A DNA stretch of 56,017 bases from Deltaproteobacteria bacterium (GTDB lineage: Bacteria; Desulfobacterota; DSM-4660; Desulfatiglandales; Desulfatiglandaceae): assembly GCA_003646995.1 (NCBI GenBank), contig QMLZ01000002.1:1-56017 (forward strand), written 5' to 3'. This document shows, piece after piece, positions 166 to 18,021 of this stretch (position 1 is the stretch's first letter; the number at the start of each line of letters is the position of its first letter). The position numbers and the translations under genes were made by a program. The notes beneath the pieces were generated by a model. That model saw nothing but the letters and a program-made list of their open reading frames with translations, had not been told where the DNA came from and ran no database searches.

Positions 166-1506
166 ATGCACAAGAAAAGTATACCCTCGGGCTCCTTTGC
201 TCTGGGCGGGAAAAAGAAGGAGGTCTTAGAGGCATACCTGGGCACATGTGTGGGAGTGGCGCTGGTTGACAACGATGCAGAGATTGGAGGACTCATTCAC
301 ATTCTTCTCCCCGAACCTACGGGCACAGATATACCTTTTAGCCCAGCAGTTTACGCCACCACGGGTCTTCCGCTTCTTATAGAGAAGCTCAACGAAGCTG
401 GCGCTCGCAGGAGTAAACTCAAGGGGTGTATAGCCGGTGGAGGGCTTGTAGGAGAGGTCAGCGAACAGGATCTAATGTTGGATATTGGTGGCAGAACAGC
501 GGAGACTGTGGAGGATATACTGCGGGAGCAGGGTGTGGCAGTAGAGAGCGTTGAAACAGGGGGGCTGTTTCCTTGCAAGATATCTTTGAGAATGGATACC
601 TTCGAAACAAGCATTGAGCCTATTGTCCAGCAAGGAGGAGGTCAAGAGGCGGGCGACATCAACATTAGCAAAGACGAGATAATGCAAGCAATAAAAGAAG
701 TGAAACCCATTCCCCAAATAGCCCTCAAGGTAATCCGGATGCTAAGGGAAAAAGAATATGACATAGATGATATTGCAATGGAGATAATGCAGGACCAAGT
801 GATTAGTGCCAAAGTCCTAAAATTGGCGAACAGTCCCATTGTGGGTGCTGCTACTACGGTGGATTCAATAGATCGGGCACTGATCGTGCTTGGGGAAAAG
901 AAGCTGTTTCAGCTTGTGCTTTCTGCTACAGTAGAGATGCTTTTCGCGGATACTAGGACTGGCGGATACTCCTTGTGCAAAGGGGGCATATTCCATCATG
1001 CCTTGGCCACCGCCATGACTGCCCATGAGATATCCGTGTTTACTCGAAGATCTCAGCCGGATATAGCGTATACAGGAGGACTTCTTCACGACATCGGCAA
1101 GATAGCGCTGGATCAGTACGTGATAACCAATGCGCCTTTGTTTTATAGGTCGCTTCAAGACAAGGGAGTTGACCTGTGTAAAGTGGAAAAGGTGAGATTC
1201 GGCCTTGAGCACACTGAAATGGGTTTTATGCTTGCCAAAAAGTGGGGATTGCCTTCCGTTTTGTCAGACGTGATAAGGTATCACCATGAGCCGGAAAACT
1301 CACAGGAGGATAGGGAACTTGTAAGCATCGTATACCTTGCCGACCTGCTAATGACCAGGTTCAGAGTGGGGTATCAAGTTGATAGACCAAACACGGAGAT
1401 GCTGGAAAAGTCCTTATCGCATATTGGACTTGGCAAAGAAGACTTCCCAATCATAATTGACAGGATACCGAGGGCCGTGTTCGAATCAACACTGCTTGCA
1501 ACCTAA
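166..1506 (+). CDS. CheD-HDOD fusion protein (chemoreceptor deamidase domain plus HDOD signalling domain)
   Basis: 446 residues with two recognisable halves. Residues 1-150 are CheD-like, with LGTC (Cys28) followed 17 residues later by His45 in the GGLIH segment, matching the Cys/His spacing of CheD glutamine deamidases that modify chemoreceptors. Residues about 168-370 form an HDOD domain (PIPQIALKVI start, KLANSP motif) with His308-Asp309 in LLHDIGK. The remaining ~75 residues include a YHHEP motif, usual for HDOD C-terminal parts. The start is supported by GGAGAGGAGG just upstream of the ATG. Separate CheD and HDOD genes lie 4.6 kb downstream and overlap each other, so the same pair occurs here as one polypeptide. 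I infer that HDOD-mediated signalling is tied to receptor deamidation; target receptors are not in the window. Confidence 0.88.
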   Translation: MHKKSIPSGSFALGGKKKEVLEAYLGTCVGVALVDNDAEIGGLIHILLPEPTGTDIPFSPAVYATTGLPLLIEKLNEAGARRSKLKGCIAGGGLVGEVSEQDLMLDIGGRTAETVEDILREQGVAVESVETGGLFPCKISLRMDTFETSIEPIVQQGGGQEAGDINISKDEIMQAIKEVKPIPQIALKVIRMLREKEYDIDDIAMEIMQDQVISAKVLKLANSPIVGAATTVDSIDRALIVLGEKKLFQLVLSATVEMLFADTRTGGYSLCKGGIFHHALATAMTAHEISVFTRRSQPDIAYTGGLLHDIGKIALDQYVITNAPLFYRSLQDKGVDLCKVEKVRFGLEHTEMGFMLAKKWGLPSVLSDVIRYHHEPENSQEDRELVSIVYLADLLMTRFRVGYQVDRPNTEMLEKSLSHIGLGKEDFPIIIDRIPRAVFESTLLAT

Positions 1507-1551
1507 CAATGAGATTAAAAGTAGTTTTAATTCTGCTTTGTGGGTTAGATG

Positions 1552-1857
1552 TCATTTGACTATATCAAGCACGGTCCCTAACATCTCGTCCTCTGTGCGG
1601 ATGCTTTTGAGATTCGCCTCGTAGCCCCGAACGGCAACTAATGACTGGGGTATTTCCTCGGCCAAGTCTACCGCATGGTCTCCTGGCGGATTATGGCTTA
1701 TCTTTATCACCACATTTTGAATTGGGCCTTCCATCATTACTGCTCGCTTTTTCCCATACCCTTCAGAGCAAATATTAGCGACGTTTTCAGCAATTATATC
1801 CATTTTTTGCCCAAAGGCCTTAAGGGCTGAAAGACCAATACCAAATATAGAAATCAT
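1552..1857 (-). CDS. Small FlgC-like flagellar rod-domain protein
   Basis: 101 residues, shorter than typical FlgC (about 135-150). The N-terminus (GLSALKAFGQKMDIIAENVAN) carries the amphipathic rod/hook signature with the NVAN motif. The C-terminus (SLVAVRGYEANLKSIRT) matches the flagellar basal-body C-terminal helix. The central part of a rod protein is almost absent, so the two terminal helices are nearly joined. It stands alone, convergent with the CheD-HDOD gene (45 bp between the stops) and away from any rod operon. A sigma-28-like promoter lies 77 bp upstream. Assembly into the rod or a role as a truncated paralogue cannot be decided. Confidence 0.72.
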   Translation of the reverse strand: MISIFGIGLSALKAFGQKMDIIAENVANICSEGYGKKRAVMMEGPIQNVVIKISHNPPGDHAVDLAEEIPQSLVAVRGYEANLKSIRTEDEMLGTVLDIVK

Positions 1858-1934
1858 CTGTGTACCCTCGGCTGCTAAAAAGTGGTACTGTTCATCAAAT
1901 TTTACAAAGGTCCCTTCAAGACACCCCCATATTT

Positions 1935-1961
1935 AAATCGGCACAAAGTAAAGGATCCTTA
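1935..1961 (-). promoter_or_regulatory. Candidate sigma-28 (FliA) promoter for the mini-FlgC gene
   Basis: On the minus strand TAAGGATC, an 11-nt spacer, then GCCGATTT. Against the FliA consensus TAAAGTTT-N11-GCCGATAA this gives 5/8 and 6/8 matches with the exact spacer. It ends 77 bp upstream of the start codon. A FliA promoter would fit a late flagellar gene. Pattern match only. Confidence 0.4.
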
Positions 1962-2092
1962 ACAACGTGGATGAAGTAGAGGATGTAAGCTGGGAACCAT
2001 GCCAAAAACATGGAACTCATGTCAAAAAAGTGGCAATAACCGAGGGCCTTGGATTGAAGGTGATGTGATAGGTGAACATGAATAGAGTTTGT

Positions 2093-2108
2093 TGGGGTTT
2101 ATATTGCA
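2093..2108 (+). promoter_or_regulatory. Candidate sigma-54 promoter for cheZ-cheY-cheA
   Basis: TGGGGTTTATATTGCA matches the -24 GG and the -12 TTGCA with the required 12-nt GG-to-GC spacing; the C and A after the GG are missing. It lies 125 bp upstream of the cheZ ATG. Similar elements precede other motility genes in this window, which raises its credibility. Confidence 0.45.
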
Positions 2109-2232
2109 GGCCTCCTAAAATTACTTGGTATAAATGTTGCAAACTTAGGAACAAAGGCGGCAGAAGGGCTTGCTCTTCAATTGAGAAAAGTTCTCTTTCG
2201 CATGTAAATTGCTCGCAGGAGGATTACCCTTC

Positions 2233-3381
2233 ATGGATCTCGCGGTGGCCGTAACTCTAAGGAGAGAAAAGCAGAGGATCATTCTTGTTCAATCTCAAGT
2301 GAAACAGATATTAAGCTCTGGTGCTCCAGCTTTAAAAATTACAAGCGTTGGTGATACATTATGCCTCCATGTGCAAGGTGAGACGGCTGAGGTAATTAAC
2401 CTAAATGCTTCCTTAGATAACGCTCCTTTTTTCGTTATACTTGAAGGACAACGCGCATTGGCTGTAGATGATTATGAGTTTTTGTTCCGACTCAAGATTC
2501 TTTCCAATGGATGTGTATCGGGTTGGGATGTAAACGGAAACAAACTGATAGGTAAATTATTTGACCCGCAAAAGGAACAGGGCGAGGAGGGGACCCCCAT
2601 CAAGGAGGCATGTAAAGCTGATTCAGAGTCTATTTCAACAACGGAGCTGGATTCTTTGAAAGAGATCTTAAAAAGGCTCAAGAAAGGGGAGTTTTATGAG
2701 GCGCTTACAATGGAATTATCCGAGAGAATAAGGGAAATAGCAGATGAAATGATTGCATGCAGAAGAGATCTCCAGAAAAGGATAGAGCCCAGCATAGTTG
2801 GGCTGGCAAAAAATGAAATTCCAGAGACAAGCAATGAACTCGAAGGTATCAATGATACGTTAGAAAAAAGCACTATGAAAATATTGGACATAAGTGAAGG
2901 GGTGTTAGCAGAATGTATGAACAGGCTTGAGGAACTTGACAGGATATACTCAGAGCTTTGCGCAGGCGTGGAAAGGCTATCTACAGAGATCTCTGCAGTA
3001 GGGCCGGAACAAGCACGAGGCATAAAGACAGGTGTTTTTACTGACTTGAAGCCGCTGGTGGATATGATAGCACGAGACAGAAAGGCATTTGAGAAAATCC
3101 GGAAATTATCGATGAACATGACAGAGCCTCTTTGTTTTCAGGATCTTGTCGGGCAGCGGATCCAAAGGATTGTCAATCTGGTAAAGACCATGGAAAAGCG
3201 AGTTCAGGACCTGATAACTTCCCTGGGATTGAGAATCAAGGAGTACGAGATGGAAAGTTCACTTCACCCCGAGGAGATGGCAACAGAGCTTGGGGAAGAT
3301 CGGTCTTTGTTAAAGGGTCCTCAAGGGGAAGGGAAGGGTCTGAATCAAAACGCAGTAGATGATTTATTGGCATCATTATAG
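2233..3381 (+). CDS. cheZ: Chemotaxis phosphatase CheZ, enlarged N-terminus
   Basis: CheZ dephosphorylates CheY-P. The C-terminal 250 residues show CheZ features: an ETSNELEGINDTLEKST helix, the catalytic FQDLVGQR segment with Asp304 and Gln308 at the spacing of Asp143/Gln147 in E. coli CheZ, and a C-terminal AVDDLLASL tail resembling the CheY-binding peptide. At 382 residues it is much longer than the E. coli protein (214). Residues 1-130 are an unassigned, probably globular extension followed by a charged linker. I placed the start at the ATG at 2233 because AGGAGG lies 10 nt upstream (2217-2222); an in-frame TTG at 2209 has no such site. cheY begins 62 bp downstream, so cheZ, cheY and cheA are probably one transcript. 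Confidence 0.87.
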   Translation: MDLAVAVTLRREKQRIILVQSQVKQILSSGAPALKITSVGDTLCLHVQGETAEVINLNASLDNAPFFVILEGQRALAVDDYEFLFRLKILSNGCVSGWDVNGNKLIGKLFDPQKEQGEEGTPIKEACKADSESISTTELDSLKEILKRLKKGEFYEALTMELSERIREIADEMIACRRDLQKRIEPSIVGLAKNEIPETSNELEGINDTLEKSTMKILDISEGVLAECMNRLEELDRIYSELCAGVERLSTEISAVGPEQARGIKTGVFTDLKPLVDMIARDRKAFEKIRKLSMNMTEPLCFQDLVGQRIQRIVNLVKTMEKRVQDLITSLGLRIKEYEMESSLHPEEMATELGEDRSLLKGPQGEGKGLNQNAVDDLLASL

Positions 3382-3443
3382 CGTTTCAACGTGGAAGTGT
3401 GCACCGTCGGCAAAACAAGAACTTACTTTGGAGGTAACGTGTA

Positions 3444-3827
3444 ATGGCGCTTGATACGTCTATCAAGGTTCTCGTTGTAGATGATTTTGCTACAATGAGG
3501 CGCATCGTAAAAGGAGTACTCAAGCAGCTGGGTTTTAAGAACATTATTGAAGCCGAGGACGGTACCGCAGCATTAAATGAACTTAGAAAGGAGAAAGTGG
3601 GTTTAATCGTCTCTGATTGGAACATGCCCAAGATGACAGGTCTTGAACTACTGAAAGAGGTGCGGGCAGACGAGGAGCTGAAAAGTATACCATTTATTAT
3701 GGTAACAGCAGAGGGGCAGAAGGAAAACGTTATTGAGGCAGTGAAGGCAGGGGTGAGCAATTACATAGTAAAACCTTTTACACCAGAGACCCTGAGCGAG
3801 AAACTGGAAAAGGTCTTCCAACGTTAA
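3444..3827 (+). CDS. cheY: Chemotaxis response regulator CheY
   Basis: A 127-residue single receiver domain that, when phosphorylated by CheA, is expected to bind the flagellar switch. Key residues are in place: acidic pair Asp13-Asp14, phosphoacceptor Asp58 (VSDWNMP), Thr88, Tyr107 and Lys110, one residue offset from E. coli CheY throughout. A GGAGG ribosome-binding site precedes the ATG. It sits between cheZ and cheA. Compared with the second CheY-like gene at 7512 this one looks like the canonical motor-binding CheY. Confidence 0.95.
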   Translation: MALDTSIKVLVVDDFATMRRIVKGVLKQLGFKNIIEAEDGTAALNELRKEKVGLIVSDWNMPKMTGLELLKEVRADEELKSIPFIMVTAEGQKENVIEAVKAGVSNYIVKPFTPETLSEKLEKVFQR

Positions 3828-3878
3828 GGTTTGGCGCGGATTCAAGCGACGCCATTGAATCCCATAAGGGGAGGAACG

Positions 3879-6128
3879 ATGGAAGAAGAGCTAAAAACCA
3901 TTGAAGATTTGATAGACCAGCTTGCCCTCGAGATCATTAACCTGGATGAAGGCGATATTCTAGGCTTGGGCAAGGCGATGAATTTGATTGAGACCCTCGA
4001 AGACAAGGGTGATCATATTAGTGAACCCAATTTTGGGAAGCTCCTGAAGGCTCTGAAACGTTATGTAGAGAAGTTGATCTTGGCGGAAGAAACGGACGTT
4101 GATCCTCTTGAGAGAGGGGTTGGAGCGCTCCAGGCTGCCTTGAGAGCTGTAAGCCGAGGGGAGTCTTATGATGATAACTTATCGGCGATGCTCTCCGAAC
4201 TCGGTCGTTACGGGCTCGAGGAATCAAATGCAAGCGATTCTCAAGGGGGCAATGGGTCCGAAGCCGAGCAGGGCCTAGAGGAGCAAGGACAGGAAGAAAG
4301 GGAAGCGTGCCCTGAGTTTCTAAGCGATGAAGATCAAGAGGTCATGGCGGATTTTGTTGTCGAGGCGTTGGAGAACCTGGGAACCATAGAGGTCAACCTT
4401 GTAGAGCTTGAGCACGATCCCTCCGACGCAGACATAATTAACGCCATTTTCAGACCATTCCATACGATAAAAGGTGTTTCGGGTTTCTTGAACCTTGCCG
4501 AAATAAACAAACTATCTCATTGTGCTGAAAATCTCCTGGACCTAGCGCGTAGCGGGGAACTGAGCATTGATGCAGACATAATTGATATCATCCTAGAATC
4601 GGTAGATATGCTCAAAAAGATGATAGAGAATGTCAAGGTGGCCCTTGAGGTAGGGCGACGGCCGTCTTCCAATGAGGGCGTGGGGCCCCTCATTGCTCGC
4701 ATTCAAGATGTGATTTCAGCCTCCAAAGAGCATAAAGATAAACCCTTGGGAGAACTGCTTGTTGAAAAAGGGGCCATCGACAGAGAGGAAATGGAAAGGG
4801 TTCTGGAGGAGCAGAAGAAAGACGGGAACAAGAAGGTAGGAGAGATACTGGTTGAAAAGGGACTCGTGGGATCAAAGGAGGTTATCAGTGCGCTGAGGGA
4901 GCAGAAAAGAGTCGGAAAAAAGAAGATTGATCTGCAGGTTAAGGTGGACACGAAAAAGCTTGATACCCTTGTGGACATGACAGGCGAATTGGTTATTGCT
5001 CAATCCATGTTGAGGCAAAACAAAAGAATCCTCTCTGTTACCGATCAGCGCCTATTTCATGCCCTGAACCAACTCCACCAGATTAGTTCCATGTTGCAGA
5101 AGACGGCCATGTCCATGCGGATGGTGCCTATTAAAAATACCTTTCAGAAAATGGTGCGATTAGTTAGGGATCTTGCCCGCAGCTCGGGAAAAAAGGTCTC
5201 TCTTGAAATGAAGGGAGAAGAGACGGAGATAGACCGAAACGTGGTTGAAGAGCTTTATGAGCCAATGGTCCATATGATAAGAAACGCCGTTGATCATGGT
5301 ATTGAGCCCCCTGAACAGCGTCTTGCTAAAGGAAAACCAGAAAAAGGGACCATTGAGCTTTTGGCCTACCAGAGAGGCGGGAGCATCATTATTGAAATTC
5401 GCGACGACGGCAGGGGTCTTGACAAGGAGAAGATCCTAAGCAAGGCTATTGATAAAGGAATAATTTCGGGAGTTGAACAATTGTCTGAGAGCGAGATCTA
5501 CAACCTCATATTCAAACCAGGTTTTTCGACCTCAGAGACAGTCACTGAGATCTCCGGGCGCGGGGTTGGTATGGATGTTGTCAAGAAGGCACTGGAAAAA
5601 CTAAGGGGCAGGGTGGAGATAAAAAGTAAGCCGGATAAGGGTTCAACCTTCATAATAACCTTACCCCTCACACTTGCTATTATTGACGGGATAATCGTAA
5701 GGGTCGCTGAACAGCGATATATTATACCAGCTTTGGGAATCCTAAAATCCTTCAGGCCTAATCCAAACGACTACAGCACCGTAGAGGGCAAGGGTGAAAT
5801 GATAATGGTCCGGGGAGAACTAGTGCCGTTGGTGAGACTCCATCATCTTTTTGAATTGTCCGAACGCACGATCAAGCCATGGGAAGGGCTAGCAGTTCTA
5901 ATTGGGAATGAGAACGAAAAGCTTTGCCTACTGGTAGACGAACTCGTTGGGAAAGAAGAAGTAGTGATCAAGACTTTAGGTGAAGCCCTGAAAAATGTTA
6001 AAGGTCTCGCGGGAGGAGCCATCTTGGGAGATGGCAGGGTGGGGCTGATACTTGATATCCCAGGGTTGTTTGCAATTGCGAAGAACAGCCAAGACTTGCC
6101 CGCATACTCGGTACAGAAGGTGGCTTAA
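3879..6128 (+). CDS. cheA: Chemotaxis histidine kinase CheA with unusual N-terminal domain and repeat insertion
   Basis: 749 residues from the ATG at 3879, chosen for GGGGAGGA just upstream; an in-frame TTG at 3831 lacks this. Order of parts: residues 1-120, a helical acidic domain not typical of CheA; an acidic linker; an Hpt domain with phosphoacceptor His195 (FHTIKG); residues 290-346, two tandem ~27-residue repeats (LGELLVEKG... and VGEILVEKG..., each ending in an EQK segment) resembling MshEN/GspE-N type motifs; dimerisation domain from about 350 (LVDMTGELV); ATPase with N box (HMIRNAVDHG), DDGRGLD and GRGVGMDVV; CheW-like domain at the C-terminus. A classical P2 CheY-binding domain is not obvious. 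cheD follows immediately after the stop. Confidence 0.93.
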   Translation: MEEELKTIEDLIDQLALEIINLDEGDILGLGKAMNLIETLEDKGDHISEPNFGKLLKALKRYVEKLILAEETDVDPLERGVGALQAALRAVSRGESYDDNLSAMLSELGRYGLEESNASDSQGGNGSEAEQGLEEQGQEEREACPEFLSDEDQEVMADFVVEALENLGTIEVNLVELEHDPSDADIINAIFRPFHTIKGVSGFLNLAEINKLSHCAENLLDLARSGELSIDADIIDIILESVDMLKKMIENVKVALEVGRRPSSNEGVGPLIARIQDVISASKEHKDKPLGELLVEKGAIDREEMERVLEEQKKDGNKKVGEILVEKGLVGSKEVISALREQKRVGKKKIDLQVKVDTKKLDTLVDMTGELVIAQSMLRQNKRILSVTDQRLFHALNQLHQISSMLQKTAMSMRMVPIKNTFQKMVRLVRDLARSSGKKVSLEMKGEETEIDRNVVEELYEPMVHMIRNAVDHGIEPPEQRLAKGKPEKGTIELLAYQRGGSIIIEIRDDGRGLDKEKILSKAIDKGIISGVEQLSESEIYNLIFKPGFSTSETVTEISGRGVGMDVVKKALEKLRGRVEIKSKPDKGSTFIITLPLTLAIIDGIIVRVAEQRYIIPALGILKSFRPNPNDYSTVEGKGEMIMVRGELVPLVRLHHLFELSERTIKPWEGLAVLIGNENEKLCLLVDELVGKEEVVIKTLGEALKNVKGLAGGAILGDGRVGLILDIPGLFAIAKNSQDLPAYSVQKVA

Positions 6129-6608
6129 GTGAATATTATTGTCGGTGTTTCAGATATGAAAGTCAGCGATGATGTCCAAGCATCGCTTATTACCTATTCG
6201 TTAGGTTCTTGCATAGGCGTGGCAATTTATGATTCGGTCGCTCATGTGGGAGGACTTCTACATTTCATGTTGCCTGACTCAAACTTGGACAAGGCAAAGG
6301 CGGATAAGAATCCGTTCATGTTCGCTGATACAGGAATACCCGCCTTGTTCAAGGCCAGCTACAGGCTCGGTGCGGAGAAGAAGCGACTAAGGGTTGTGGT
6401 TGTGGGTGGTGCACAGGTGCTGGATCAAAAAGGATTTTTTAACATTGGCAAGAGAAATCACATGGCGGTGAGGAAAATTTTTTGGAAGAACAAGGTGATG
6501 GTAGATTATGAGGACGTCGGGGGTAACGTTAACAGAACCATCCGGATTGATATCGGGACTGGGGACATGTGGGTAAAGGTTTCTGGTCAGGAGTACAGGA
6601 AGGTATGA
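6129..6608 (+). CDS. cheD: Chemoreceptor glutamine deamidase CheD
   Basis: A 159-residue stand-alone CheD. The catalytic Cys28 is in LGSCIGV and His45 in GGLLHFMLP, followed by a FADTGIP segment. The family deamidates specific glutamines on methyl-accepting receptors and in several bacteria binds CheC/CheX-type phosphatases. The GTG start directly follows the cheA stop codon. The gene end overlaps the next gene as ATGA, a sign of translational coupling with the HDOD protein. Length and motifs are normal, unlike the fused copy at 166. Confidence 0.94.
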   Translation: MNIIVGVSDMKVSDDVQASLITYSLGSCIGVAIYDSVAHVGGLLHFMLPDSNLDKAKADKNPFMFADTGIPALFKASYRLGAEKKRLRVVVVGGAQVLDQKGFFNIGKRNHMAVRKIFWKNKVMVDYEDVGGNVNRTIRIDIGTGDMWVKVSGQEYRKV

Positions 6609-7453
6609 GCACAATAGATAAGATAATAGAAGAGATAAATAGCCTTAGGCCTATTCCCAAGGTTGCTCATAGGGTGCTCGCAATAGTGGACGATCCCAAC
6701 AGCTCGGCTTCTGATTTGGCGGAAGTAGTTATGTATGACCAAAGCCTGACCGCGAACGTGCTTAGAATCTGTAACTCGCCGTTTTACGCGCTCCCAAGAA
6801 AAATAGACTCTATTGACCAAGCTGTTGCATACTTGGGCATGGGAAAAATAGCTGAGATGGTCTTAATGAAAATGGGCGCCGACTACCTAAAGGCCGAACA
6901 CAAGGGGTATGATTTACGTGAAGGTGATCTTTGGATGCATGCGGTATCTTCCGCGGTTATTGCAAAGGAGATCTGTGAGCTCAAGAAGGTGAGAAACCAG
7001 CAACTTATTTTTACCGCGGCCCTTCTCAAGGATATTGGTAAGGTGATTTTGCACAGGTATGTTGGAGAGATGTTCGATCAGATATTTACTCTTGTAGAAA
7101 AAGAACAGGTAACTTTCAGAGAAGCCGAAAAAAAGGTCATAGGGATAGACCACGCAGAACTGGGGGCAAGGGTGGCGAAGAAATGGCAGTTCAGTGCAAA
7201 AATGGTTCATATCATCGGCAATCACCATCTTAATGGCTCTTGGTCTGAAGAGGACATTGAGACGGCCATAGTGTACTTAGCAGATACCATTTGTATGATG
7301 ATGGGTTTAGGTGTAGGCTGCGACGGTCTTGCCTACAGGTTTCATAACAAGGTAGTAAGAACCCTTCAGATAAGTGACGTTGATATTCAGGGGATAATGG
7401 CGGGATTTGGACAGAGATTGCACGAAGTAGAGGAGTTAATGGGCATGTGCTAA
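6605..7453 (+). CDS. HDOD domain signalling protein
   Basis: 282 residues from the ATG that overlaps the cheD stop; a GTG 36 nt upstream is possible but less likely. HDOD landmarks: RPIPKVAHRVL at the start, RICNSPFY near residue 55, and ALLKDIGK where the His of an HD metal site is Lys. No phosphodiesterase activity is therefore expected; HDOD proteins generally act as protein-interaction or output modules in signalling. Its translational coupling to cheD mirrors the CheD-HDOD fusion at 166, which suggests that the two proteins interact. Confidence 0.88.
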   Translation: MSTIDKIIEEINSLRPIPKVAHRVLAIVDDPNSSASDLAEVVMYDQSLTANVLRICNSPFYALPRKIDSIDQAVAYLGMGKIAEMVLMKMGADYLKAEHKGYDLREGDLWMHAVSSAVIAKEICELKKVRNQQLIFTAALLKDIGKVILHRYVGEMFDQIFTLVEKEQVTFREAEKKVIGIDHAELGARVAKKWQFSAKMVHIIGNHHLNGSWSEEDIETAIVYLADTICMMMGLGVGCDGLAYRFHNKVVRTLQISDVDIQGIMAGFGQRLHEVEELMGMC

Positions 7454-7473: not shown

Positions 7474-7893
7474 CTATGGTTAATCCCAACATCCAATATT
7501 AGGAGCAAGAAATGGGATTCAACGTGCTCATCGTAGATGATTCGAGAGTGATGAGGTCGGTTCTTAAAAAGACTATGCAGATGTGTGGGTTTAACGTCGG
7601 CCAGATACTTGAGGCAGGTGATGGCCGTGAGGCGCTGGAGGTTTTGAAGACCAATTGGGTGGACTTGGTAGTCACTGATTATAACATGCCTCAAATGAAT
7701 GGACTAGAGTTAATAGAAGAGATGAAAAGGGACGAGGTGCTATCTGGTATACCAGTAATCGTGGTGACTACAGAAGGAAGCGAACAAAAGATAAAAGCGC
7801 TGCTAGACAAAGGGGCATCTGATTATCTTCAAAAACCTTTCACACCGGAACAAATGAAAAGTAAGTTAAACCGCCTTGTGGGAGAAGGTCATA

Positions 7894-9407
<1,514 letters not shown>

Positions 9408-10917: not shown

Positions 10918-11488
10918 CCTTTGCCTCCCTCAGGGCTTTTTCCTTCCTGATAATCTTTCGTTGTTTCTTGAATACTGACTCAATGATTGCGTCCCTCGCA
11001 CTTTCGTCTATCTCAAGAATCTTGGCCGCAATGACATACTTGGCAGATTTGTCGTCCTTCACACACCTGATAATCTCGGCTATTAATTCTATGCGAAATT
11101 GGACAGTGCTGGGAATGATGAGGTCCACCTTTGCAAGGGAACCCTCTACTACAGGCTCATTACTCAAAAACTTAAAGCCCGATCCACTTAATTCAACAAC
11201 TTCCTTAAAAGCATTGATCCGATTTTCAGCTGGTAGAGTCAGTTCTTCTATTATGAAGTCAAGCTTGTTGTTAAAATTCTTAAAGCACTGATATAATATG
11301 CTCGTTTGGGGGTTAGTCGGCATTGTACTTATGAATTCTTCCAAAGGATCAGGTTGGTCACCTCCGCGGAAAAGAGTAATCCCAAGCCCCTGCCTGGCAA
11401 GGTTAAAATCTTCCCCTTCCAAAAAGTGAAATTTAGCGGGGAAAGACACCTTGGCCCTTACAAATTCACGCCTGTTGTTTGGTTCCAT
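10892..11488 (-). CDS. PilZ-domain protein, putative c-di-GMP receptor
   Basis: 198 residues. The N-terminus NRREFVRAKV fits the arginine-containing PilZ switch, and VELSGSGFKF fits the second motif ([DN]xSxxG) with Glu in place of Asp/Asn, so binding may be weakened. A long insertion (about residues 30-90) separates the motifs, and the last 30 residues are Lys/Arg/Glu rich. GAGGG lies upstream of the ATG and a sigma-54-type element about 77 bp upstream. It is co-encoded with the kinase-like gene and near an HD-GYP gene, so a c-di-GMP link to motility is plausible. Confidence 0.78.
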   Translation of the reverse strand: MEPNNRREFVRAKVSFPAKFHFLEGEDFNLARQGLGITLFRGGDQPDPLEEFISTMPTNPQTSILYQCFKNFNNKLDFIIEELTLPAENRINAFKEVVELSGSGFKFLSNEPVVEGSLAKVDLIIPSTVQFRIELIAEIIRCVKDDKSAKYVIAAKILEIDESARDAIIESVFKKQRKIIRKEKALREAKDEQGRTRT

Positions 11489-11564
11489 CGTCTTCCCTCG
11501 GGTCCAGGATTTTCAGCTAACCAGTCGAGGTAGCCGAAAAATGAAAAAGTCATAAAACGAAAGA

Positions 11565-11580
11565 TGCAATAATAGTACCA
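11565..11580 (-). promoter_or_regulatory. Candidate sigma-54 promoter for the PilZ operon
   Basis: On the minus strand TGGTACTATTATTGCA: GG and GC are 12 nt apart, TTGCA is perfect, and only two positions of TGGCACG differ. It lies 77 bp upstream of the PilZ ATG and would drive both the PilZ and the kinase-like gene. Confidence 0.55.
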
Positions 11581-11682
11581 AAAGAACTCGGGGTCCACTG
11601 AAGCAAGGACTCCAACCACATGTGTACTTAAATCATGTATTGGCAAAAATCAACGTAGTTTGGACGTAGGGGGATTTTGTCG

Positions 11683-13239
11683 TCAAAATTTCAACACCCG
11701 CAGGGCAGCTTCCACGATTTCGGGGTCGAACTGTGTACCAGCATTCTTTTTCAACTCTCGAAGGCATTGGGAAAAGGGCAATCTATTACGGTAAGCTCTG
11801 TCAGAATTCATGGCATCAAAGGCATCGGCTACTGAAAGTATTCGCGCCAATTTTGGTATCTCTTCTCCCTTGAGCCCATCTGGATATCCTGTTCCGTCCC
11901 AACGTTCGTGATGGTTTCTTATAATGGCGAGTTCATCCTGGTCTAGGCCAAGGTGAGAAACTATGTTCACGCCTATTATGGGATGGGTCTTGATGACTTG
12001 GAACTCTTCCGGAGTCAGCCCGCCCGGCTTCTTGAGGATATGGTCGTCTATTCCGATCTTGCCTATGTCGTGGAGTGGACCGGCTGACTCAAGTTTCCTG
12101 ATCTCATCGGGTTTGCACCTTAGCTCATAAGCTATCTCAACAGACAGGTGGGTAACTCTTTCAGAATGCTGTTGAGTATATCGGTCCCTAGCTTCTATTG
12201 CGCTTACAAGCGAGGCCAAGGTGGCAAACATGTTTTCCTTAAGGTTGTGATACAGAGCCATATTTTCCACGTTAAGCGCAGCCTTTTCAGCCAGGAAATT
12301 AAGTACAAATTCATCGTCACGGTCAAACTCACTGCCTTGTTTTTTGTTGGCCACCAGTAACACACCAAACAGTTCACCTCTAATCTGAAAAGGAACAGAA
12401 ATAATGTTTGGAAGCCTGCACGTGCGGTTAGAAAATATGGGCCTGCCATTGCACGAAGTCAGATAAGTCTCGATGAAATTTCTGTCTATATAAGAGGACT
12501 TCCGATCCGCACGATAAACAGGAACTTCTGTTCCGGCCCGCAGATTGCTGACCCCGTGGTAGGTGAACGCGAATAGGGAGCCTTTGGATGGATCGTGGAT
12601 CAAGAAGCAAGCCTTTTCAGCATTGCAGGCCTCGCAAGCCTTTGTTACAAGGAATCGGTAGAGATCCTCGGAGAGATTCAATTGCGAAAGAGTGTCGATT
12701 ATTTCATAAAGAAGGGTTTTCTCCTTTATCTTCTTTTGTAATTCGTCATTGAGCTTTTCAACTTGTTTTTTCTGCTCCAATTCCTGGTTCAAGGCCCAAT
12801 TTTTTTCCATGAGCGCATGAAGTCGGTGAATTCTCTCCATGGAGACTTTGACGTCTTGAAGTCTGAAAGGCTTAATGAGGAAATCAGAGGCACCGTACCG
12901 CATTGCCTCTATTACTTTCTCCATGGAGGGATATCCAGTCATTACGATCACAGCCGTGGGTAAACCCGAATTGCTCAGATAGGTCAGCACCTCCATTCCA
13001 TCCATTTCGGGCATCATAAGGTCCATGAACACGTAGTCGTATGCCACCGAGCTAAGGGCCTCTACCGCCCTCTTACCATTCTCAGCAGTGTCCACGTGTT
13101 TGACACCGAGGTGATAGAGGTATGAGCTAAGGGTTTCCCTGATCAGGGCCTCGTCGTCTACAACCAGCACGCTGAGCGCACCCAGTTCATTGGCCGGCGC
13201 TGGGGCTATCTTAGGTTTTGGAACAGCCTGGCTTTGCAA
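11683..13239 (-). CDS. Receiver-GAF-HD-GYP response regulator, predicted c-di-GMP phosphodiesterase
   Basis: 518 residues. Receiver domain at about 20-140 with Asp28-Asp29 and phosphoacceptor Asp73 (FMDLMMP); a coiled coil at about 140-180 (LEQKKQVEKLNDELQKK); a GAF domain at about 185-330; an HD-GYP domain at 345-515 with His390-Asp391 (LHDIGK) and the HHERWDGTGYPDG signature. HD-GYP proteins hydrolyse cyclic di-GMP, and the receiver suggests phosphorylation control. The start overlaps the 3' end of the REC-SHOCT gene by 34 nt, so the pair is co-translated. It sits between flagellar genes and the PilZ gene, which makes a motility role likely. Confidence 0.93.
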   Translation of the reverse strand: MQSQAVPKPKIAPAPANELGALSVLVVDDEALIRETLSSYLYHLGVKHVDTAENGKRAVEALSSVAYDYVFMDLMMPEMDGMEVLTYLSNSGLPTAVIVMTGYPSMEKVIEAMRYGASDFLIKPFRLQDVKVSMERIHRLHALMEKNWALNQELEQKKQVEKLNDELQKKIKEKTLLYEIIDTLSQLNLSEDLYRFLVTKACEACNAEKACFLIHDPSKGSLFAFTYHGVSNLRAGTEVPVYRADRKSSYIDRNFIETYLTSCNGRPIFSNRTCRLPNIISVPFQIRGELFGVLLVANKKQGSEFDRDDEFVLNFLAEKAALNVENMALYHNLKENMFATLASLVSAIEARDRYTQQHSERVTHLSVEIAYELRCKPDEIRKLESAGPLHDIGKIGIDDHILKKPGGLTPEEFQVIKTHPIIGVNIVSHLGLDQDELAIIRNHHERWDGTGYPDGLKGEEIPKLARILSVADAFDAMNSDRAYRNRLPFSQCLRELKKNAGTQFDPEIVEAALRVLKF

Positions 13240-14931: not shown

Positions 14932-17900
14932 TTATACCCATCCAACGGATATGGCCTGAATTTGGCCAGTTAGCCACTGGCTTTGACTTTGAACCGCCGC
15001 CAGAGCCTTTTCCATGGCTATGAACTGCCTAACCATTAACTCCATTTTCTTGTCCAATCGGGCCTCCATTTGCTGGATCCTGTCTTCTAGCCCCTTGATG
15101 GTGCTTTGAAGTGAATCTTCTTTGTAAGATAAGTAGCCTTCGTAGGGGTCAGTGATCCCGAAAAGTATTCGGTCGAAACTCTCGGCTACACCAAGGGTTA
15201 GCTTTATGGTTCCAATCTCTCCGGTTTGCGTTCCATCGTAACGTATGCTGAGGCCCGCCACATTGGGTTGGTCATCATCGCCAGTTAGTACCTGTCCCTT
15301 GCCTGTTGCAGACTCGCCATTGATCGTTCCAGCCACATCCTGCCCATTATTTACTGTTTGATCCCCGCTGGTCCAAAGCAGATTCGCTGATTCTGAGATA
15401 GTAAAGCTATGATTACTGCCATAGGCATTGTGACTTAACACAAGGTGGTTGCTGTCATCTCTTGATGCTGTGATATCTATGGCATAACGCCCTTCTTGCC
15501 CTCCTGTGTTGGTGGCCAATACTGACCCAAAATCAAGATTTCTGTCAGTAGGCTCTTCGATTGTGAGGCTCAGCTGGCTGTCACCAGGCCTTTTGTCAGT
15601 TACTACTATTCTGCCTGAACTATCCAAAGAAACACTGACTTCTCCTCCAAAAGCACTTTCGATGGCACTGATCAAACCCTGAACTGTATCTGAGCTGACG
15701 TCAGAAATAGTATAGGATCCACTGACTGCCGAGCCGTTCCTTTTGGTGCCGGAAAAAGTGATAACGTCCCCATCTTGCAGCCCAGCAGACTGGCCCGAAC
15801 TATCATAAACGCTGTCCCAGGTAGTATCTAATGTTATGGCCTGATTTTGAGAAGAATCCGAGTACAGACTTTCAGATCCTACAAGTATTTCTGTGTATAT
15901 GGTATCAAGTTCAGTATTTATTGCGTTGACAATGTCAGTTATGGTCATGTCACTTGTCAGTTCTATGGTAGCACTCTTGTCCCCTTCGGTGATTGTTATG
16001 GTTTCATCGGACCCTATGGTGGTGTCTACTTGAGTATCACTGGTAGAAGAGCTTTTCGTAGCAATCTGCGTTATGTTTACTGAATATTCGCCCGCCTTTG
16101 TTTGACGAGTGTGAGTGAGATATTCAATAGTACCGTTACTGCTTATACCGCTGGCGGTAAACAGGTACCTAACATCGTTAAAATTGGTTTGGAGGTAACC
16201 ACGCAACTTGTCATCGTCGATGCTCAATTGACCTTCTTTGTCCACACTGATACCAACCAGGCCCAGCGTTGAAAAGTTTTCTGCTACTCCCCATACCGCT
16301 TGGACAATGGCTCCACTTAGCTGGGATTGAATGGAAAACAAAGTGCCATCTCCAAATAAGATCCCGCCTGGCTCCTGCTTCTCTTCATCATAGGATTGTT
16401 GATCATGGATGTACTGGGCAACCTCATTGTAAGCATCAACGAATGCCTGAATCTTGTTGATTAGTCCGTCTACATCACGGTCAATATTCAAGGTAACTGT
16501 TGTATTGCTATCAGCATTCAAAAGGTTCAAAGTCACCCCAGGGATAACATCCGTAATGGAATTGCTCGAGTTGGTAATTGTGACACCGTCGATTACCACG
16601 GATGCGTCTTGTCCGGCTACAAGCTCCCTTTTCCTGACAGTAGAAAGGGTATTGAAGGACCCGAAATCAAGGGAAGAGTAATTATCTTGAATGTGGGATG
16701 TCAGTGAAACCGATAGTGAGCTAGCGCCGCTTTGCATGTCAGCTATTTGTATTTGGCCCTGCGAGGTTAAGTATACAGCTACCTCTCCACCATTTGCTTC
16801 GAATGCGGTTTCTATTGCGTCTAGGAGGTCTTGAACGGTTGACCCGCTGGTTATGGTAAAGTCAGTGTTTACGCTATTTCCATTGTGGTCTGTCCCGGAT
16901 ATGGTTATATAGTCGCCCGTAGTATAGAGGTTATAGCCATCAATCGCGGATAAAAGGGTGTCAGCTGCTATGGTTTCTCCGTCACTTGTCATGGAGTTCG
17001 TTGATGTGGTTCCCTGGATATCTGAAACCCCGCCCTGCAGAATGCCCAGGGTTTCTAGGATATTTGAGGAGTCATTGAAACCCTGGCTTCCGTCGATTTG
17101 CAGTATGTATCTTGTATTATCTCCATCGTCTGCAGTGACCACTGAGGCGCTGACTCCGGCAATGGAAGCGTTATTGATCTTTGTCTTAATATCCTCCAAT
17201 GAGTCTGTAGACAGATCGATCGTGACATCTTGGTATACGCCGTCTCCATCAAGAATCTGGATTGTGCCGGTTTGGGTGGACGAAAGCCCTAGCAAGCTCT
17301 TTATGTCCTGGGTAGAGCTCGAGAAGGAATCGGATTGCACACCGTTTGTGATGGGATTCTTGATGTTTTCACTAGTATCTTTCCAGCCGAATGCTTGGAT
17401 TATGTCCTCTGAAGATGCGTTTTGAAGGCCTATGCCCTCTGCTCCGGTTTCGTCACTGGTGAGTATCAACCTAAAATCATTGGTGCCGTAAGCGAGTATA
17501 CTGGCAGTCACACCAGTAGGATGGGTCCCTGCATTGGCAGCATTAATTTTATCCCTGACACTTGTCAGGGTATCGGTAGCGGCAACATGGATGGCGACTC
17601 CGTTAATAAGGATGTCTCCCTCGTAGGAGGCCCCCAAGGCATTGTCGAGAGAAGCAAAGGAAGAGGAAGACAGTTTCTGCGCAGTAGCTATTGAGGAAAT
17701 TTGTATGGTATAAGTGCCCGGCGAAGCGGTTGAACTAGCTGTCGCGCTCAAAAGGCTTGAAGCACTTGTATCGCCAGTGGACTGCATGCTAGTGGTGTAA
17801 AGGTTGAAATCTTCTGGGTCTTTAAGGCTCTCGCTTGCTGATTTGAGGGACAGGAGTTTGCTGTTGAAGGATTGCCATTCAGAAAGCTTTTTTTCGTAGT

Positions 17901-18021
17901 CTGATTTTTGATTTTCCACCAAATCGACAGGTCTGTGCTCGATTTTCATAAGGTCATCTATTATGCTTCGCCAGTCAAGCCCACTGGCTAGCCCACTGAC
18001 TGACTGTGTGCTCATTACCAT
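14932..18021 (-). CDS. fliD: Flagellar hook-associated protein 2 (filament cap) FliD, very long form
   Basis: 1029 residues, about twice the usual length (450-700). The N-terminal domain is canonical (GLASGLDWRSIIDDLM), followed by repeated flagellin-IN-like segments (for example TGTIQILDGDG, SVRDKIN, SLEDIKTKIN). The C-terminal FliD domain (FDRILFGITDPYEGYLSY, then a coiled coil and AMEKALAAVQSQSQWL) is intact. Residues 369-455 and 751-833 are a clear internal duplication, both starting GD-I-(T/S)-G and ending LDFGS. The insertions are Ser/Thr/Asp rich with almost no Cys, as expected for a surface cap. FliD caps the filament and promotes flagellin polymerisation. TAGGAG precedes the first ATG. 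Confidence 0.94.
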   Translation of the reverse strand: MVMSTQSVSGLASGLDWRSIIDDLMKIEHRPVDLVENQKSDYEKKLSEWQSFNSKLLSLKSASESLKDPEDFNLYTTSMQSTGDTSASSLLSATASSTASPGTYTIQISSIATAQKLSSSSFASLDNALGASYEGDILINGVAIHVAATDTLTSVRDKINAANAGTHPTGVTASILAYGTNDFRLILTSDETGAEGIGLQNASSEDIIQAFGWKDTSENIKNPITNGVQSDSFSSSTQDIKSLLGLSSTQTGTIQILDGDGVYQDVTIDLSTDSLEDIKTKINNASIAGVSASVVTADDGDNTRYILQIDGSQGFNDSSNILETLGILQGGVSDIQGTTSTNSMTSDGETIAADTLLSAIDGYNLYTTGDYITISGTDHNGNSVNTDFTITSGSTVQDLLDAIETAFEANGGEVAVYLTSQGQIQIADMQSGASSLSVSLTSHIQDNYSSLDFGSFNTLSTVRKRELVAGQDASVVIDGVTITNSSNSITDVIPGVTLNLLNADSNTTVTLNIDRDVDGLINKIQAFVDAYNEVAQYIHDQQSYDEEKQEPGGILFGDGTLFSIQSQLSGAIVQAVWGVAENFSTLGLVGISVDKEGQLSIDDDKLRGYLQTNFNDVRYLFTASGISSNGTIEYLTHTRQTKAGEYSVNITQIATKSSSTSDTQVDTTIGSDETITITEGDKSATIELTSDMTITDIVNAINTELDTIYTEILVGSESLYSDSSQNQAITLDTTWDSVYDSSGQSAGLQDGDVITFSGTKRNGSAVSGSYTISDVSSDTVQGLISAIESAFGGEVSVSLDSSGRIVVTDKRPGDSQLSLTIEEPTDRNLDFGSVLATNTGGQEGRYAIDITASRDDSNHLVLSHNAYGSNHSFTISESANLLWTSGDQTVNNGQDVAGTINGESATGKGQVLTGDDDQPNVAGLSIRYDGTQTGEIGTIKLTLGVAESFDRILFGITDPYEGYLSYKEDSLQSTIKGLEDRIQQMEARLDKKMELMVRQFIAMEKALAAVQSQSQWLTGQIQAISVGWV
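15523..15771 (-). repeat. FliD internal repeat, copy B (residues 751-833)
   Basis: This segment matches copy A at 16657-16917 at protein level: GDVITFSGTKRNG against GDYITISGTDHNG, TVQGLISAIESAF against TVQDLLDAIETAF, and the shared ending LDFGS. It is a diverged in-gene duplication of about 83-87 residues. Confidence 0.8.
16657..16917 (-). repeat. FliD internal repeat, copy A (residues 369-455)
   Basis: Partner of the segment at 15523-15771. The order of motifs is the same in both copies and the lengths differ by four residues. Confidence 0.8.

Follow-up and report, generated by a model that had tools for sequence, protein, structure and literature searches.

Why should CheD and an HDOD domain be joined twice, in two different ways, near one end of a contig? 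CheD is seen as an enzyme that acts on receptors, and HDOD as a domain whose mechanism is unknown. The contig is from a Deltaproteobacteria bacterium (GenBank assembly GCA_003646995.1, contig QMLZ01000002.1, positions 1 to 56,017; this whole stretch of 56,017 nt is called the window). One gene (166..1506, + strand) fuses the two domains; downstream, a standalone cheD (6129..6608, +) overlaps a standalone HDOD gene (6605..7453, +). A note made from the sequence alone, here called the original prediction, took this double linkage to mean that the two domains work together. We show that CheD and HDOD are linked recurrently, as a fusion or as neighbors in the order cheD-HDOD, mostly with a 4-nt overlap. 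The main new result, read from conserved residues, is that where receptors seem to have been lost, the paired CheD tends to lose its chemistry but not its HDOD, whereas the fused CheD keeps its Cys and His.

The two forms in the window

The fusion gene encodes 446 aa, with a CheD half at about residues 1-152, a linker at about 155-162 (modeled with low confidence), and an HDOD half at about 169-440. A Pfam scan found both domains in the one protein, CheD (PF03975) at 65.1 bits against a cut-off of 25, and HDOD (PF08668) at 158.6 bits against a cut-off of 22.9; in the predicted structure, the HDOD half matches the HDOD structures 3p3q, 3ljx, 1vqr and 3hc1. Cys28 and His45 are present in the CheD half, and the HDOD half carries the HD-type ligands His278, His308-Asp309, His349, His373-His374 and Asp393. 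Frame, residues and domains thus agree with the original prediction of a CheD (Cys28, His45) joined to an HDOD (His308-Asp309). It had also called the CheD complete, which is right for Cys and His but not for the third triad position, where Glu22 stands in place of Thr21 of Thermotoga maritima CheD. The best NCBIfam CheD equivalog score of the fusion is 79.9 bits, below the cut-off of 251.

The standalone CheD (159 aa, GTG start) hits PF03975, retains Thr, Cys and His, and is encoded in the same che operon as cheA and cheB; it too falls below its NCBIfam CheD equivalog cut-off (121.5 bits vs 240). Its gene overlaps that of the standalone HDOD protein (282 aa; PF08668 at 191.1 bits, cut-off 22.9) as ATGA, and the HDOD motif LLKDIGK places Lys142 where the fusion has His308, both as had been foreseen. 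PF13487, the test for HD-GYP, was not listed in the Pfam scan for either the fusion or the separate HDOD. The placement of both forms in one cluster needs qualifying: the fusion is a neighbor of the che operon rather than a member of it, with a reverse-strand gene (1552-1857) in between.

Recurrence of the fusion and of the pair

A protein search with the fusion gave 2360 relatives among 8000 scored; the CheD, HDOD and HD Pfam domains were found in all 120 relatives listed, the window's own protein included. From a scan of one-genome-per-species contigs, which gave 438 relatives, we took the 80 that match the fusion best (the fusion loci), and in all 80 both domains lie in a single open reading frame. 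Their record titles mostly read Deltaproteobacteria or Desulfobacterales, and the group carrying the link is presumably that now named Desulfobacterota.

For the pair, an even sample of 198 genomes was taken across the phylum to which Desulfosarcina widdelii belongs (the phylum sample), and 104 of them have a CheD match. As standalone loci we used the first 100 short-frame CheD rows among the matches listed; because these were taken in E-value order, the sample leans to high-scoring CheDs, and most of the sequences behind the CheD and HDOD profiles came from fusions and pairs. A pair was defined as an HDOD at most 500 nt downstream of a CheD on the same strand. The six-frame scan of the 100 loci yielded 112 CheD hits, including some fragments; 104 were scorable and 8 lay too close to an end. 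HDOD lies directly downstream in 49 of the 104, and in 39 of these 49 the end of cheD and the beginning of the HDOD gene share 4 nt (32 ATGA, 6 GTGA and 1 TTGA). The reverse order, HDOD upstream of cheD, was seen in none of the 55 unpaired scorable hits and in none of 98 CheD open reading frames. The 401 HDOD matches in 59 genomes give a mean of 6.8 per genome, which, assuming about 3000 genes per genome, would make a random neighbor an HDOD in roughly 0.2% of cases; 49/104 exceeds chance. In a second phylum HDOD was downstream in none of the 30 best-scoring CheD loci (Fisher p 1.6e-7 vs 49/104, with kinship ignored); three more long-frame CheD rows from there (G297, G253 and G302) were left out, and a fusion (L053) is present in G231, a genome from that phylum. 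The proposal that the domains work together is thus supported beyond the window, and the search that the original prediction had suggested, for CheD-HDOD architectures and neighboring genes, finds both arrangements in other genomes.

Among the rows listed in the phylum sample, 17 CheD frames reach at least 400 aa; 15 were fetched, of which 13 are fusions; the frame of G004 is the fusion of L038 (Desulfosarcina widdelii), and that of G120, within L121, lacks HDOD. A second set of CheD-HDOD fusions was noticed in L194-L204, except L197; these bear a Glu-Thr motif ahead of the Cys loop, and often have same-strand neighbor genes of about 190 and 290 aa. Some loci hold a second CheD near a first, and in this second copy the catalytic Cys is replaced by Ala, Gly or Ser (L095, L099, L106, L109, L154, L183, L191) or retained (L116, L121, L136).

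Active sites of fused and paired CheD

The triad of T. maritima CheD is Cys27/His44/Thr21, and its third member varies across the fold family, being Ser in NTAN1 and a backbone oxygen in CNF1 (available part of PMC7022378). Fused CheDs retain Cys and His in 94/94 cases and Thr in 0/94; at the Thr position are Glu (42), Gln (32), Asp (8), Lys (4), Asn (4), Val (2), Tyr (1) and Gly (1). Among paired CheDs, Thr-Cys-His is found in 58/64 rows, or in 57 of the 63 different genes, since one gene is present in both L136 and L213. All six remaining rows come from eight genomes in which neither CheA nor CheW was matched (see below), one of them, L084, being cut by the contig end.

The triad is therefore intact in 56/56 distinct pairs elsewhere vs 1/6 readable pairs (L083) in those eight genomes, a contrast whose effective numbers are lowered by kinship. 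The receptor screen behind it covered the fusion-bearing genomes described below, not most of the genomes of the other pairs nor those of the 100 standalone loci. Counting all readable standalone CheDs of the eight genomes, the unpaired L087 included, the triad is intact in 1/7: it reads Ala-Gly-Asn in L082, L087 and L088, His has become Arg in L081 and Gln in L085, and Thr has become Ala in L086. On the tree these changes fall on three branches or more (L082/L088; L081 and L085; L086). Cys and His are both retained in the fused CheD of each of the eight genomes (8/8).

Fusion-bearing genomes without matches to the chemotaxis core

The core pathway was searched for in 45 fusion-bearing genomes, which hold 46 of the 80 fusion loci; matches were found for CheA in 34, CheW in 37, methyl-accepting chemotaxis proteins (MCPs) in 38 and FliG in 38. 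CheA and CheW are both without a match in the eight genomes mentioned above (G003, G208, G209, G221-G224, G227), and MCP is without a match in seven, all draft genomes among those eight. CheD in its fused form is thus not always accompanied by chemoreceptors (MCP in 38/45, none in 7). CheB is likewise without a match in 6/8, and CheR in 2/8. Full-length FliG is found in 5/8, and those genomes therefore look flagellated without receptors; G003 has no FliG match. As a proxy for completeness, four large class-I synthetase frames were found in G208, G222, G223 and G224, and class-I synthetase frames are split or partial in G209, G221 and G227.

Standalone CheDs occur in six of the eight genomes, as eight copies, and HDOD follows seven of them. 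In L085 the pair and a second HDOD are located between flgN and flgK; gene content and order are the same in L081 and L083, and the three loci are close kin. All three show two tandem HDOD genes after cheD in a flagellar operon, in genomes without CheA, CheW or MCP matches.

The link that the original prediction had drawn between receptor deamidation and HDOD signaling accordingly fits mainly the paired form, with its intact triads outside the eight genomes, and less well the fused form, which has no Thr and is kept in 8/45 genomes without CheA and CheW matches, 7 of them without an MCP match.

HDOD residues and phylogeny

In the fusions His278, His308, Asp309 and His349 are retained in 94/94, and Asn or Glu replaces Asp393 in 14/94. 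The His of the HD pair is present in 50/64 paired HDODs, with Lys in 12 and Gln in 2 (L174, L182); Lys was considered as a mark of the unfused HDOD and rejected, since most paired HDODs keep His; Lys marks the window-type subgroup.

A free search for the HDOD tree split the fusions, yet the best tree with the fusions together scored higher (p-AU, from the approximately unbiased test, 0.939). Fused and paired HDODs fall on one side of a branch vs 23 controls, with a support of only 65; not counted as controls are L224, placed within the pairs, and six HDODs from loci with fusions or pairs. The CheD tree puts the fusions together on one side, with support 76.

Relation to known systems

We found no description of a CheD-HDOD fusion or a cheD-HDOD pair in the literature within reach, which lacks most subscription papers; the accessible portions of PMC12607878, PMC4894983 and PMC9239204 hold nothing on CheD with HDOD. 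Compared with CheD as the receptor glutamine deamidase (T. maritima, PDB 2f9z), the fusion has an HDOD appended, is without Thr throughout, and is retained in some genomes without receptor matches. The same PDB entry, a complex of T. maritima CheD with CheC, offers a likeness in that CheD has a dedicated signaling partner; the partner here, however, is an HDOD protein and not a CheC-type phosphatase. SadB of Pseudomonas (PDB 9qzk) also puts a hydrolase-like N-terminal domain before a C-terminal HDOD, but its N-terminal domain is YbaK-like, whereas that of the fusion is CheD by Pfam and by fold. SadB is a motility regulator with reported cyclic di-GMP binding (PMC6543031, in part), and other HDOD proteins alter swimming elsewhere: PSPTO_4229, PFL_0554, PFL_5871, GsmR and CJ0248, besides SadB (from the parts available of PMC11813219, PMC11004494 and PMC6543031). 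Finally, the group-alpha che clusters of Geobacter share an HD-type protein within a che cluster; this standalone HD-domain gene, according to a 2008 description, is probably under the control of chemotaxis-like signaling or a participant in it, but neither a cheD overlap nor a fusion appears in the available part of that description (PMC2577667).

A proposed two-part module and its alternatives

The reading that we prefer, at even confidence, is that CheD and HDOD form a two-part signaling module, with CheD as partner and switch of HDOD, in which paired CheD also serves receptors and fused CheD has a job for its Cys and His for which receptors may not be required. The two probably share a second job, because the link persists in some genomes without detectable chemotaxis receptors. 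By analogy with CheC, we infer that HDOD would partner CheD directly and would play the part that CheC plays in other bacteria: the state of HDOD would control CheD, and CheD binding would control HDOD output. That output would most likely concern flagellar motility, as HDOD proteins of other bacteria act there. In chemotaxis clusters like that of the window, paired CheD with its triad presumably still deamidates receptors; where receptors seem lost, it would tend to lose catalysis while remaining a binding partner of HDOD. The fused protein would be a separate branch, whose CheD half, with Cys and His and without Thr, could do without chemoreceptors and most likely acts on, or senses, something else; either an amide outside the receptors or a function as thiol sensor would be compatible with this. 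Somewhat more tentatively, this may amount to a chemoreceptor-independent CheD system, in which CheD would serve as the sensor, or as the switch, in a CheD-HDOD regulator of flagella (in G003, of something else) in bacteria without receptors, CheA and CheW. The fused form would then be an amidohydrolase that uses Cys and His on a target other than receptors, with the triad Thr usually replaced by an acidic or an amide residue.

Several observations weigh against such a module. More than half of the scorable standalone CheDs (55/104) have no HDOD neighbor, and most fusion-bearing genomes (38/45) do have receptors. The fusion is the only CheD found in 17/45 genomes, 16 of them with an MCP match, and therefore could serve receptors there. 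The absence of CheA, CheW and MCP rests in 7/8 cases on draft genomes of unstated completeness; the exception, G003 (a one-chromosome record), lacks CheA and CheW matches and still has 2 MCP-type matches. A CheR match persists in 6/8 of the genomes without CheA and CheW, and the trees are consistent with either one origin of the link or several.

These receptor counts speak for the idea that the fused protein is an ordinary receptor deamidase, which HDOD only places or tunes, and in which the loss of Thr is tolerated. The invariant Cys and His would suit it, as would the variability of the third triad residue in the fold family in the accessible text of PMC7022378. We nevertheless find it unlikely, given that the fusion keeps Cys and His in all eight genomes without CheA and CheW, seven of them without MCP, and that window-type che genes adjoin it in 3/80 loci (L001, L003, L004; many flanks are short). 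Still less probable is the absence of any direct partnership, with cheD and HDOD merely co-transcribed as motility genes and the overlap a matter of operon compactness. Both genes do occur in motility or chemotaxis operons, and the many unpaired CheDs fit; but a full fusion exists in many species, the order of neighbors is always cheD then HDOD, mostly with the 4-nt overlap, and the pair persists despite loss of CheA, CheW and receptor matches and of the CheD active site. That last observation, with standalone CheDs losing catalytic residues in the eight genomes and seven of eight copies keeping HDOD, would also suit CheD as a pure scaffold, everywhere a structural ligand of HDOD with catalysis irrelevant. 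This we consider quite improbable, as the fused CheDs keep Cys and His in every case, including those of the very same genomes.

If the two-part module is real, the lasting genetic link points to a candidate partner for HDOD and assigns CheD a role beyond receptors. The genomes seemingly without receptors would be a natural experiment, in which the active site of paired CheD decays and the Cys and His of fused CheD stay, and the question of what HDOD does would become directly testable with one purified protein.

Gene neighborhoods

Many flanks of the fusion loci are short, CheR, CheW and MCP genes were not sought there, and each neighbor family was named from one representative. Beyond the three loci with window-type che genes, che-type matches beside the fusion in the 80 loci are weak CheA-like kinases or receiver domains. 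The gene immediately downstream is selA in 29/79 scored loci, with hem genes farther away; these look like housekeeping neighbors. A GGDEF gene lies immediately upstream in 5/79 loci, and a block of response regulator/HD-GYP genes with FlaG, FliS and FliD follows the fusion in 6/80. As functional clues to the fusion, the GGDEF and FliD/FliS/FlaG neighbors are suggestive only.

In the window, the gene between the fusion and the che operon (1552..1857, - strand; 101 aa) is a short flagellar rod-like gene, conserved in L001. Its product consists almost entirely of two flagellar rod motifs, Flg_bb_rod at the N terminus and Flg_bbr_C at the C terminus; the L001 counterpart is at 11412-11762. The operon itself, all on the + strand and assigned by Pfam, runs from a CheZ-like gene (2209..3381, 390 aa, with a C-terminal CheZ domain) through a cheY-like response regulator (3444..3827) and cheA (3831..6128; Hpt, dimerization, ATPase and CheW-like domains) to the cheD-HDOD pair. 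The pair is followed by a second cheY-like response regulator (7512..7940), a cheX-like gene (7876..8376), whose longest frame (TTG start) overlaps the preceding gene, so that the real start may be later, and cheB (8373..9407; receiver and methylesterase). Two kinds of phosphatase for phosphorylated CheY, CheZ-like and CheX-like, thus share one operon with two CheYs; no CheC was found among the ten window proteins scanned with Pfam. Rfam and PHROGs searches gave no matches. Farther along, at 14932-18021 (-), lies a long FliD-like open reading frame of 1029 aa, with similar lengths in related loci, e.g. L009, L015 and L052.
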